The translations under genes and the position numbers were made by a program. Shown piece by piece: positions 1 through 64,000 of a stretch of DNA of 64,000 nt. The notes beneath the pieces were generated by a model that was given only the letters and a program-made list of their open reading frames with translations, was not told where the DNA came from and ran no database searches. Positions within the stretch are counted from its first letter, which is position 1. Each line of letters begins with the position of its first letter. Origin of the DNA: Deltaproteobacteria bacterium (lineage in GTDB: Bacteria; Myxococcota_A; UBA796; SXON01); NCBI GenBank assembly GCA_014191855.1, contig BJHF01000003.1, forward strand, positions 1 through 64,000, in the 5' to 3' direction.

Positions 1-784
1 CGGCGATGTCGAGGTTGGACATGATCTTCAGACGGCTCGTGATCGCGTGCTTGAGCCGGAGCGGCGGCTTCATGACCTCGTAGAGCATGCCGTCGATGCG
101 GTACCGGATGCGAAGCTGCTTTTCGTAGGGTTCGATGTGGATATCGGAGGCGCCCTTGCGGATCGCGTCGAGCAGCACGAGGTTGACGAGCTTGACGACG
201 GGTGCATCGCCGGCGCTCTTCTCGAGGTCGAGGACGTTGATGTCTTCGTCTACATCCCCGCCCAGCTCCAGGTCTTCTTCACCTTGCGAGAAGTCCACCA
301 TGACGTCTTCAAAGGTGACGTTGCTGGTGTAGTACTTCTCGATCGCCTCGGCGATCTGCCCTTCAGACGCCACCACGATGTCGATGTTGAAGTTCGTGAT
401 GAACTTGATGTCGTCGACCGCATAGATGTTCGACGGATCGGCCATCGCGACGATGAGCGTGTTGCCGGACTTGTTGATCGGGATCACCTGGTGGCGAACC
501 ACGACCTCCTTCGGGATGAGCTTGAGGACTTCGGAGTCGATCTCGAAGTCTCTCAGGTTGATCGAGGGCACTCCGTAGTGCTTGCTGAGGAACGAGGTGA
601 GCTCGTTCTCCTCGATGTACCCGAGCTTCGTGAGCTGGTGCCCGAGTCGGCCGCCCGTGGCCCGCTGCGTCTCCATCGCTTTCTGAAGCTGCAAGGGCGA
701 GACGAGGTTCTCGCGGACAAGCAGCTCACCGAGCCGCGCGTTGGACACACCGGATCCGGGGGTCGATTTCCGTTCGTCAGCCAT
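1..784 (-). CDS. pilB: Type IV pilus assembly ATPase PilB, N-terminal part (truncated by window start)
   Basis: Reverse-strand translation from ATG at 784: MADERKSTPGSGVSNARLGELLVRENLVSPLQLQKAMETQRATGGRLGHQLTKLGYIEENELTSFLSKHYGVPSINL... continuing to ...GASDIHIEPYEKQLRIRYRIDGMLYEV; typical PilB/GspE N-domain. Absent from the ORF track because no stop lies in the window. Confidence 0.9.
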   Translation of the reverse strand, partial: MADERKSTPGSGVSNARLGELLVRENLVSPLQLQKAMETQRATGGRLGHQLTKLGYIEENELTSFLSKHYGVPSINLRDFEIDSEVLKLIPKEVVVRHQVIPINKSGNTLIVAMADPSNIYAVDDIKFITNFNIDIVVASEGQIAEAIEKYYTSNVTFEDVMVDFSQGEEDLELGGDVDEDINVLDLEKSAGDAPVVKLVNLVLLDAIRKGASDIHIEPYEKQLRIRYRIDGMLYEVMKPPLRLKHAITSRLKIMSNLDIA

Positions 785-834
785 GGGGTTCCTCTGGGCG
801 CGCGCCATGGTAGCGCACTCGCGGGCCGCGCGGG

Positions 835-1908
835 CTAGCGGAGTTCGCCTTCGGCACCTTTCGGGGCCGCCGGACTCGAACGATCCTCGATCACCAGCCG
901 GGAGATCATGCTCATCGTGTCGGGGTTCACGCGCGCGGCGAGCGTCCAGACGCCCGTTGGATCGCGCCAGCCCGCGAAGGCCACTCCGTCGTCGCCGCCC
1001 TCCGAGCGCCCCTCCGCAGCATCCGCGCCGGGGAGCGCGCCGCCGCTCCGATGCTGAAGGGTCCAGTCGGCGCCGAGGCCGAAGTAGAGGCACACCACCA
1101 CGCCGGCGTCGTAACGGCCGCCGACGAGGCGCAGGGATTCACGGCTCAACAAGGGACATTCCGCGAGCGGGGGGGGCGCACCCGCTTCCTGCAGGCGCGC
1201 AGCCAACCGCAGCGGATTGCCCTCGACCAGCACGCCTCCGCTGGCCGAGAGCGCATCGTCGTGCAGCCGCACCGGATCCGGAGGCCGCCACGCGGACCAG
1301 CCTGCGAAGCCGAGGATCGCGAGGAGGGCGGCGCCACCGGCGAGGGCGAGGCGGAGTCGGGGTGGCGCGGGCGGGCGCTCGGGCGGGAGCGTGACGCCAG
1401 GCGGGAGGATCAGCGCATCCCCCGGCGGATTTCGGAGGAGCGCGGTGTGGACCAGCAGGCGCGCGTCGGTGTCGGCCGAAGGTTCCAGCAGGCGGTACGC
1501 GGCGCGGACCGTGGGATCGGGCGGGGTCCAGTCGAAAAAGAGATCTACGAGGTACCCGAGTCGCGTGCAGGCCGGGAGTTGGCGTACGCCCAGCTCATCC
1601 TGGGAAAGGGTGTGCGTGGGGAGCGGCCCGGTATCGGAGAAGGAAGCGAGGGCGTGCTCGTACAGCGCACGGCCCACCTGGGGCGCCACGCCCTCGTCGG
1701 CCCGAAACGACGCCGTTCGTTCCTGGAGATCCACGCGGAAGGAGCCCATCCAACCGAGGGCCTCGCTGTCCGCATCCACGAGCGCCCGGAACACCGACCA
1801 CGCCGCGCCAGCCTGGGCGTTCCAGAGCTGCGTGAACGCGGCCCCGGTGCCCGAGCGCAGCGCCCGAAGCAACCGGAACTCGGCGAGATCCATCGGGGTG
1901 AGCGCCAC
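835..1908 (-). CDS. Hypothetical single-pass membrane protein; N-terminus vaguely sigma-70 region 2-like
   Basis: 357 aa ORF; hydrophobic segment LRLALAGGAALLAILGFAGW mid-protein; N-terminus MDLAEFRLLRALRSGTGAAFTQLWNAQAG resembles ECF region 2 openings. Confidence 0.6.
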   Translation of the reverse strand: MALTPMDLAEFRLLRALRSGTGAAFTQLWNAQAGAAWSVFRALVDADSEALGWMGSFRVDLQERTASFRADEGVAPQVGRALYEHALASFSDTGPLPTHTLSQDELGVRQLPACTRLGYLVDLFFDWTPPDPTVRAAYRLLEPSADTDARLLVHTALLRNPPGDALILPPGVTLPPERPPAPPRLRLALAGGAALLAILGFAGWSAWRPPDPVRLHDDALSASGGVLVEGNPLRLAARLQEAGAPPPLAECPLLSRESLRLVGGRYDAGVVVCLYFGLGADWTLQHRSGGALPGADAAEGRSEGGDDGVAFAGWRDPTGVWTLAARVNPDTMSMISRLVIEDRSSPAAPKGAEGELR

Positions 1909-61514: not shown

Positions 61515-61805
61515 CTACTGAATACAGGCGTTGGTCTTGTCTTTCGCCTGCGCCCGCATCACGTAGCAGAGGCCGTTGCACATCGCCCGACGGTCGGACT
61601 CCGCGAGCTCCAACCCGGGGTACCCGCCCTGGGTGGCGGCCAGGGCGGCGCAGTCGGGGTCCCGCGCCAGGCAGCGCGCTTCGCACGTTGCGCCCCGGCC
61701 GAGCGCCCAGCCCAGCTCACCCCGGTGCGCCTTCCACCATCCCCAACCGACGAGGAGGATGGTGGCGGTGAGGGCGAAGATCGCCAGCTCTCGACTACGC
61801 TTCAC
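61515..61805 (-). CDS. Small membrane-anchored cysteine-containing protein
   Basis: GTG start: VKRSRELAIFALTATILLVGWGWWKAHRGELGWALGRGATCEARCLARDPDCAAL...RAMCNGLCYVMRAQAKDKTNACIQ; GTGA overlap with upstream kinase. Confidence 0.6.
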   Translation of the reverse strand: MKRSRELAIFALTATILLVGWGWWKAHRGELGWALGRGATCEARCLARDPDCAALAATQGGYPGLELAESDRRAMCNGLCYVMRAQAKDKTNACIQ

Positions 61806-63391
61806 TTGACCGAACAGTTCTGGAATTGCGAGGTGCAGGTGAGCGTGGTGGTTCCACCAGTGGCCACCACCACGCCCCGCCTGGTGATGGTGGTGCCATC
61901 CGGGAAGGTGGCCACCGCGCTGTAGGTGCCCGCGGGCACCTCGCCACCCGAGAACGTGCCTGCTTCGCCGGAGAAGGTGACCGATGCCGCATCCCCCTTC
62001 ACGACGATGCGACCGGGGCCGGCTGCTGGCGCGGGCTCCACAGGGGGGGCCACGACCGACGCTGCAGGCGCCGGGGCCGGAGCCGCGCCCTTCGTCGGCG
62101 TAGCCACAGGCGGCGCTTTCGAAGGAGCGCCAGCCGGCTCCGGCTTCACCTTTGCCGGCTCCGTGCCCGGTTTTGGGCTTGCGGGCGGAGGTTGCGCCGT
62201 GGTCGGCGCCTTTGCGGCGGGCGTGGGCGCCGGCGCCTTGCTGACCGGCGGGGGCGCGGCGACACCGGGCACCGGAGCCGAAACGGGCGTGGCCTTGTCC
62301 GGCTTGTCTGGCCCAAACAGCAGCACCCCCACGATGATCACGGCAGCCACCAGCCCGGCCACCAGCAGCGCGGCCGGAGCCGCCAGCCACGACAGGGAGA
62401 AGCCCCCGGCTGCCCTTGGCTTGGAGAGCGGCAGCACCCCCGAGCGCTCGATGAGCAGCGTACCGGAACGATCCGCGGGTGCCTGGCCGCGGCGCTCTTC
62501 CTGGAGCTTCAGCACGCCAGGAACCACCCGCTCCGCCCACTCATCCAGCGTGTCGCCCGGGAGCGCCTGCCGGATGGTCGCAGCGAGGCGGGCCGTTTCC
62601 CGGGCGGTGGGCCGATCCTGCGCTTTCGGCGCGAGCATCTGCGCCACAAGGTCGTGCAGCGGCTGCGAGATCTCCTCGAGCCACGCCCACTGCGCGCGCA
62701 GCTTGTCGCCCGGGGGGACCCGATCCGCGTCCATCGCCGTTTTTCCCGGCTTCACCGACGTGAGCATCTCAAACAGGGTGACGCCGAGCGCGTAGATGTC
62801 CCCCGCGTGGGTATCTTCGCCGTAGAAGCGCTCCGGCGCCATGTACGGCACGGTGCCAAACGCCGCCTCGGAGGTGTGCTCTTCACGGTCCTTCATCTCG
62901 GCGCGCGCCACGCCGAAGTCGAGGATCTTCACCTCGCCCTGCGCCGTGACCCGCAGGTTGGAGGGCTTGATGTCGCGATGGATGAGCCGCAGGGGCTGCC
63001 CATCGGTGCCGTTCTGATGGTAGGCCGCGTGCAGCGCCCCGGCGACTTCCTCGATCATCGCCAAGGCCGCGACGGGCGGGATGGCGCCCTGCTTCAAGAG
63101 CTCCGTGATGTCGCAACCCTCGACGTACTCCATCACGATGGCCCAACTGCCATCGAGCTCCATCAGGTCATCGACGCGAACGATGGCGCGGTGACGAATC
63201 GCGGCCAGCATCCGCGCCTCATCCCGAAGCCGCCCCAACAGCCCGGGCGTGGAGACCTTCTCCGGGCGCAGCAGCTTCACCGCAACGCGACGATCCAAGC
63301 CGGAGCCGACGGTGTTGGCAAGGTACACGGAGCCGAACGCACCCTGGCCGAGGAGCGCGGCGATCCGGTAGCTTCGCCCGCCCCTCACCAC
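61802..63391 (-). CDS. Membrane Ser/Thr protein kinase with Ala/Pro linker and PEGA-like C-terminus
   Basis: YRIAALLGQGAFGSVYLANTVGSGLDRRVAVKLL, LIHRDIKPSNLRVT, KILDFGVARAE; TM LSWLAAPAALLVAGLVAAVIIVGVLLF. Confidence 0.93.
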   Translation of the reverse strand: MVRGGRSYRIAALLGQGAFGSVYLANTVGSGLDRRVAVKLLRPEKVSTPGLLGRLRDEARMLAAIRHRAIVRVDDLMELDGSWAIVMEYVEGCDITELLKQGAIPPVAALAMIEEVAGALHAAYHQNGTDGQPLRLIHRDIKPSNLRVTAQGEVKILDFGVARAEMKDREEHTSEAAFGTVPYMAPERFYGEDTHAGDIYALGVTLFEMLTSVKPGKTAMDADRVPPGDKLRAQWAWLEEISQPLHDLVAQMLAPKAQDRPTARETARLAATIRQALPGDTLDEWAERVVPGVLKLQEERRGQAPADRSGTLLIERSGVLPLSKPRAAGGFSLSWLAAPAALLVAGLVAAVIIVGVLLFGPDKPDKATPVSAPVPGVAAPPPVSKAPAPTPAAKAPTTAQPPPASPKPGTEPAKVKPEPAGAPSKAPPVATPTKGAAPAPAPAASVVAPPVEPAPAAGPGRIVVKGDAASVTFSGEAGTFSGGEVPAGTYSAVATFPDGTTITRRGVVVATGGTTTLTCTSQFQNCSVK

Positions 63392-63479: not shown

Positions 63480-64000
63480 TTAGCCCATCAGGCTCAGTTC
63501 GCCCGAACGCATCGCCGCGCGGCGCCCGGCGCCGACGCCGATCCACTGCACGGTTCCGTCGAAGCCCACGACGACGACTCCGCGAAGCACGCTCGCCGTG
63601 CGCGCGGCAATTTCTCGCTCACGTGAGGCTGCGAAGCGCCCGACGAACGCGAGCACCGCATCCTCCGCATCGCCCACGGGGAGCCCCGCGAAGACATGGA
63701 GCCCTTCCTCGGCCGCGCGCAGCACCGCGTCGGCGTCGTCGATGCCGGGCACGTCCGTCACCGCGACAGCGTCGGCGTCCTGCCGGAGCGCCTGCCGGAG
63801 GCCTTCGTGGAACGAGGCCACATCGGTACCCACCTCCCGCTGGCTGATGCTCGCGCGAGCATCCTGGTGCAACCAATCGATCGGGTCTTCGATGCTCACC
63901 AGCCGGCCCCACGCGCGCTCGTTGAACTCCCGGATGATGGCAGCGACCACGGCCCTGCGTTTGCGCGCACCCCCGATCAGCACCAGGCCCGGCGGCCCCT
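63480..64000 (-). CDS. PilT/GspE-family ATPase-like protein with degenerate nucleotide-binding motifs (truncated by window end)
   Basis: GPPGLVLIGGARKRRAVVAAIIREFNERAWGRLVSIEDPIDWLHQDARASISQREVGTDVASFHEGLRQALRQDADAVAVTDVPGIDDADAVLRAAEEGLHVFAGL aligns by eye with PilT core. Confidence 0.78.
   Translation of the reverse strand, partial: GPPGLVLIGGARKRRAVVAAIIREFNERAWGRLVSIEDPIDWLHQDARASISQREVGTDVASFHEGLRQALRQDADAVAVTDVPGIDDADAVLRAAEEGLHVFAGLPVGDAEDAVLAFVGRFAASREREIAARTASVLRGVVVVGFDGTVQWIGVGAGRRAAMRSGELSLMG

Follow-up and report, generated by a model that had tools for sequence, protein, structure and literature searches.

The gene at the end of the analysed stretch encodes a PilT-like protein (here pseudo-PilT) that is predicted to be a pseudo-ATPase, derived from PilT, restricted to one bacterial order and paralogous to the PilT/PilU retraction ATPases. 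The stretch (the window) is 64,000 nucleotides of contig BJHF01000003.1 (contig C3 of genome G000) from a deltaproteobacterium. Residues for ATP binding and hydrolysis are lost, and we consider it very likely that the protein is a pseudo-ATPase. An earlier note on the window had proposed this reading, which is strongly supported by losses common to all orthologues, intact reading frames, and low dN/dS.

Gene structure and relationship to PilT

The window truncates the pseudo-PilT gene, and the first 409 bases lie beyond it. The full gene (G000:C3:63480-64409, minus strand) is intact: it starts with an ATG at 64409, ends with a stop codon at 63480-63482, and encodes 309 aa in 309 codons with no internal stop. 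The intact frame described from the window part therefore extends to the whole gene, which contains no second ATPase core. The peptides quoted previously are all present on the minus strand of the window part (GLVLIGGARKRRAVV, SIEDPIDWLHQ, ISQREVG, SFHEGLRQALRQDADA, and DADAVAVTDVPG). A chance open reading frame in GC-rich DNA was ruled out by the homologue matches and dN/dS. Feature positions are given in Table 1. At the other end of the window (1-1093, minus strand), the start of contig C3 cuts off a PilB/GspE-type ATPase, of which the N-terminal part is present.

Table 1. Positions of the pseudo-PilT gene, its motifs, and the adjoining kinase gene in the window
Feature	Position	Strand	Remarks
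Pseudo-PilT gene, 3' part	63480..64000	-	Whole gene C3:63480-64409
Former Walker A, residues 141-153, GLVLIGGARKRRA	63951..63989	-	Two-residue deletion; G-x-R-x-R loop replaces GxxGxGK[ST]
ASP box EDPID, residues 174-178	63876..63890	-	Residue roles from PMC6858323
QREVG, residues 190-194, retained	63828..63842	-	Corresponds to E178/G180 region of PilT Gm
Former Walker B DAVAVTD, residues 213-219	63753..63773	-	PilT equivalent DhhhhGE
Former HIS box EGLHVFAGLP, residues 235-244	63678..63707	-	Both PilT histidines absent from the 23 aligned sequences
Downstream Ser/Thr protein kinase gene	61802..63391	-	Same strand as pseudo-PilT, 88 bp gap

Residues 19-279 of pseudo-PilT match TIGR01420 (pilT_fam) with an E-value of 2.4e-46, and the match spans model positions 2-263 of 343. 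The score (158.5 bits) is below the curated cut-off of 319.1. Pseudo-PilT has no match in PHROGs, and its nearest solved structure is G. metallireducens PilT4 (phmmer E 1.2e-35). AlphaFold models of the window protein (pLDDT 91.8, pTM 0.84) and of one member from family f3 of the order (pLDDT 92.7, pTM 0.83) are confident and PilT-like in fold, and the two have an identical order of elements when compared by helix and strand order only. In a Foldseek search with the window model, PilT4 and PilU ranked top (E about 1e-27 to 1e-26), and the best PDB match was PilT4 (E 2e-27, TM-score 0.81 by query). These matches indicate that pseudo-PilT is a genuine PilT homologue, and the models indicate that the PilT fold is retained.

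PilT/PilU proteins (TIGR01420; G. metallireducens PilT4, PDB 6OJY/6OJX) have the same two-domain fold and domain order as pseudo-PilT, with about 30% identity, and the RFR, ASP-box Glu, and QREV motifs are common to both. Unlike them, pseudo-PilT scores below the family cut-off, has a shorter C-terminus, is located outside pil clusters, and lacks Walker A, the HIS-box histidines, and in most orthologues the catalytic Glu and arginine finger 2. GspE, PilB, and TadA (PF00437, T2SSE) belong to the same superfamily, and the match of pseudo-PilT to this domain is weak (32.2 bits). These proteins are intact ATPases, unlike pseudo-PilT, and the extra N-terminal and zinc-binding regions of PilB and GspE are absent from it.

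Residues lost and retained

Residues were mapped onto PilT Gm, with roles taken from published work (PMC6858323; PMC5424180). The alignment contains 23 orthologues, and the sequences of two more (L062 and L063) were inspected directly. Walker A (GxxGxGK[ST]) is absent from all 25 orthologues; direct inspection of L062 and L063 found no GK[ST]. P132 and T133 are deleted in every aligned sequence, and the Walker A lysine (K137) is replaced by arginine in 21 of 23, resulting in a G-x-R-x-R loop in most. The earlier note had held that a conserved non-canonical P-loop would speak against a pseudo-ATPase. The replacement loop goes halfway in that direction: it is fairly conserved, but it is two residues shorter and lacks GK[ST].

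The catalytic E205 column contains Glu in 5 and Asp in 15 of the 23 sequences (D219 in the window protein), and the Gly preceding it (Dh4GE, Walker B) is kept in four. Neither HIS-box histidine (H223 and H230) is His in any aligned sequence, and T221 is lost in all. Arginine finger 2 (R98 position) is His in 19 and Arg in two, and it is thus lost in 21. The C-terminus is short, without AIRNLIRE and the region after it; pseudo-PilT ends near a degenerate AIRNLIRE remnant in family f1 and earlier in other lineages. The missing Walker A noticed in the window protein is shared by the orthologues of 24 other genomes and the loss of the Walker B Glu by most of those aligned; the HIS box, arginine finger 2, and the C-terminus add to the losses.

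Other PilT residues are retained, including R81 (23/23), arginine finger 1 (R83 position, 21/23), E178 (20/23), and the ASP-box E160 position (22/23; E174 in the window protein). The ASP-box E164 position is Glu or Asp in 17/23, and the Mg-coordinating position of this box is Asp in the window protein and Thr or Gly in five f3 members. D213 of the former Walker B survives. KVPxRP, LHRD, and R270 are newly conserved among orthologues and untypical of PilT. R81, E178, and the I163/S73 positions are open-interface contacts in PilT Gm, where the E178/G180 region makes such contacts (PMC6858323). The closed-interface partners T133, T221, and H230 (PMC6858323) are lost in orthologues, and so are the interface contacts T221-T133 and H230-T221.

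An ATPase with an unconventional site would fit the mostly Lys-to-Arg change in Walker A and the survival of E174, D213, and arginine finger 1. However, such activity is highly improbable given a short P-loop without GK[ST], no HIS-box histidines, a catalytic Glu that is mostly Asp or another residue, and the loss of finger 2. Absence of nucleotide binding is beyond proof from sequence.

Selection, distribution, and genomic neighbourhood

The three closest orthologue pairs (91-93% amino-acid identity, dS 0.55-0.86) have dN/dS values of 0.051, 0.072, and 0.122, indicating purifying selection on pseudo-PilT in pairs close enough to measure. In the remaining pairs dS is near or above 1, so their dN/dS is only rough. 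The ratio of N-terminal to ATPase-domain identity is 1.12 among orthologues, compared to 0.80-0.84 within canonical PilT and PilU-like groups and 0.64 between these groups (averages over related pairs, with no test of significance). This suggests that the N-terminal domain has taken over from the ATPase domain as the more constrained part, the reverse of the canonical groups.

Relatives were searched by protein sequence and the order by profile, which gave one orthologue per genome in 25 of 63 genomes; the other 38 are without the gene. Orthologues were accepted at 311 bits or more (range 311-424), and the next best match in the order scored 217; lower-scoring matches that were examined are canonical PilTs. 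In a sample of 379 genomes of the phylum, nothing outside the order scored above 253 bits, and the best out-of-order matches that were checked carry GK[ST]. A GTDB contig scan revealed no degenerate member outside the order in the few examined among the matches listed, and rare members may exist elsewhere. The genomes are mostly in fragments, with completeness of 72-99%, and every one that has a record title was assembled from metagenomes. In the tree, the 25 orthologues form one supported clade grouped largely by host family. Families f1 and f3 each group, with several forks unresolved and long branches flagged. This topology is as expected from mainly vertical descent, and the change to a pseudo-ATPase most simply predates the split of the order's families.

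Two arrangements predominate around the gene. In five genomes, including that of the window, rpsI is directly upstream with rplM beside it, and the kinase gene comes about 0.1 to 1 kb after pseudo-PilT. Most other lineages whose flanking DNA is long enough have pseudo-PilT immediately after ffh in the same orientation, often with a gap of no more than about 100 bp, and in several of these loci one or two GT9 glycosyltransferase genes come next. In two f3 genomes ffh is close by in the opposite orientation. In three other f3 genomes pseudo-PilT is followed by a co-oriented sigma-70 family factor gene (L172:8236-8955, L173:10366-11079, and L174:4992-5726). No pil, gsp, or tad gene was found beside pseudo-PilT in any locus read. 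Linkage to ffh was not accepted as proof of a role in SRP because the position may be neutral.

The earlier note placed pseudo-PilT next to a Ser/Thr kinase. The two adjoin in the window's close relatives and lie no more than a few kb apart in some further f1 genomes, but no kinase was found nearby in most lineages other than f1. Because it is mainly a neighbour in f1, the kinase was downgraded as a functional partner. The kinase in the window includes a hydrophobic segment, and its C-terminal part is rich in Pro and Ala; the same kinase is near the gene in several f1 genomes.

Rapid evolution and absence from 38 genomes could suggest a decaying pseudogene or an assembly artefact. The low dN/dS of the three close pairs (0.05-0.12) argues against decay, orthologues that were read have open frames, and independent genomes share identical losses. 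The ffh regions of 18 genomes without the gene were read, and no trace of it was detected there within 1.5 kb. In four of these 18 (G022, G028, G044, and G047; loci L247, L248, L253, and L237), a GT9 (heptosyltransferase-type) gene directly follows ffh, so the slot is cleanly empty. The decay that could have undermined the earlier reading was thus not found, and we rejected this explanation as having next to no likelihood.

Type IV pili of the hosts and the putative role

All 42 genomes of the order outside f3 have a protein passing the TIGR01420 cut-off, and a canonical pilT, which the earlier note suggested looking for, is present in the window's own genome (G000:C19:4061-5083). The cut-off is passed in only three of 21 f3 genomes (G032, G054, and G059). 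Seven f3 genomes carry pseudo-PilT, and in six of these (G039, G046, G050, G055, G057, and G061; 77-92% complete) no PilT/PilU-type protein near the cut-off was found. Loss of PilT in most of f3 appears to be the simplest reading, rather than incompleteness, because f3 genomes at 96-98% completeness also lack it. The other f3 matches that were examined belong to the GspE and TadA types. Four T2SSF domain matches are usual in the more complete f3 genomes (more in G027), a number that fits one GspF plus TadB and TadC; there is therefore no sign of the T4aP platform protein PilC in the f3 genomes surveyed. Most of f3 (e.g., G023, G042, G044, and G048) appears to have lost type IVa pili and kept type II secretion and Tad ATPases.

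The regulatory mechanism first suggested was mixing into PilT hexamers. As a subunit that co-assembles with PilT and damps retraction, pseudo-PilT would suit the canonical PilT in all 42 non-f3 genomes and the retention of arginine finger 1 and R97. The six f3 genomes keep pseudo-PilT without any PilT, so doping of PilT rings cannot be its general role; in addition, the T221-T133 and H230-T221 contacts are lost, and linkage to pil genes is lacking. We regard this special case of the wider proposal below as improbable; the pseudo-ATPase part of the earlier suggestion stands, and general mixing into PilT hexamers does not. Relatives persist in bacteria that appear to have lost the pilus retracted by PilT, and the job of pseudo-PilT is therefore probably other than powering or diluting the PilT motor.

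Taken as a whole, the best explanation, to which we give an even chance, is an order-restricted pseudo-ATPase derived from PilT/PilU that would partner a machine of the type IV filament kind, in regulation or as a scaffold. It would be independent of nucleotide and not a motor. Its N-terminal domain and the open-interface contacts that remain (R97 with the ASP-box region, and the QREVG loop with residues near A89) would still allow pseudo-PilT to join ring partners. Its partner could be PilT/PilU where these exist; in f3 it would have to differ and could be the ATPase of type II secretion (GspE), that of the Tad system, or further copies of pseudo-PilT in a homo-oligomer. In V. cholerae, ATPase-dead PilT still supports PilU-driven retraction (PMC6821130; PMC6762196). 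From this precedent and the retained interface residues we infer assembly with a ring or platform, and we tentatively propose that pseudo-PilT acts on a ring ATPase, its platform, or a filament-machine partner. Several points limit or oppose this explanation. The partner is putative, the retained interface residues may serve folding, PilT and PilU act as separate homohexamers in V. cholerae (PMC6821130), most genomes of the order (38 of 63) lack the gene, and the loci that were read do not place it with pil, gsp, or tad genes.

A role unrelated to type IV filaments is nearly as likely as a filament-machine partner. The PilT fold could have been repurposed, for example as a scaffold or a sensor that binds anions, with expression tied to the housekeeping gene ffh and with the G-x-R-x-R loop holding some ligand that is not ATP. 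This is a possible reading, held with some doubt. Consistent with it are the six genomes that keep pseudo-PilT without PilT, the common position between ffh and GT9 genes rather than beside pil genes, the arginine at the Walker A lysine position, and the newly conserved residues. On the other hand, interface-type PilT residues are still conserved, GspE or Tad ATPases in f3 genomes are possible filament partners, and the ffh neighbourhood may be neutral. It is rather unlikely that the family has left both ATP and type IV pili behind and now binds a ligand or acts as a scaffold, being expressed with the SRP gene ffh and having a new arginine loop for its P-loop.

The engineered PilT K136A of V. 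cholerae (PMC6821130; PMC6762196) is also PilT-like without ATPase activity, and it keeps a non-catalytic role there. Compared to this mutant, pseudo-PilT is natural, old, far more degenerate, and present in genomes without PilT. In a limited search of the open literature, the PilT/VirB11-like motor family yielded no naturally occurring pseudo-ATPase. Pseudo-PilT offers a natural way to tell the PilT residues needed for assembly from those needed for catalysis, and a selected, dead PilT that outlives the pilus would reveal a use for this fold beyond force generation.
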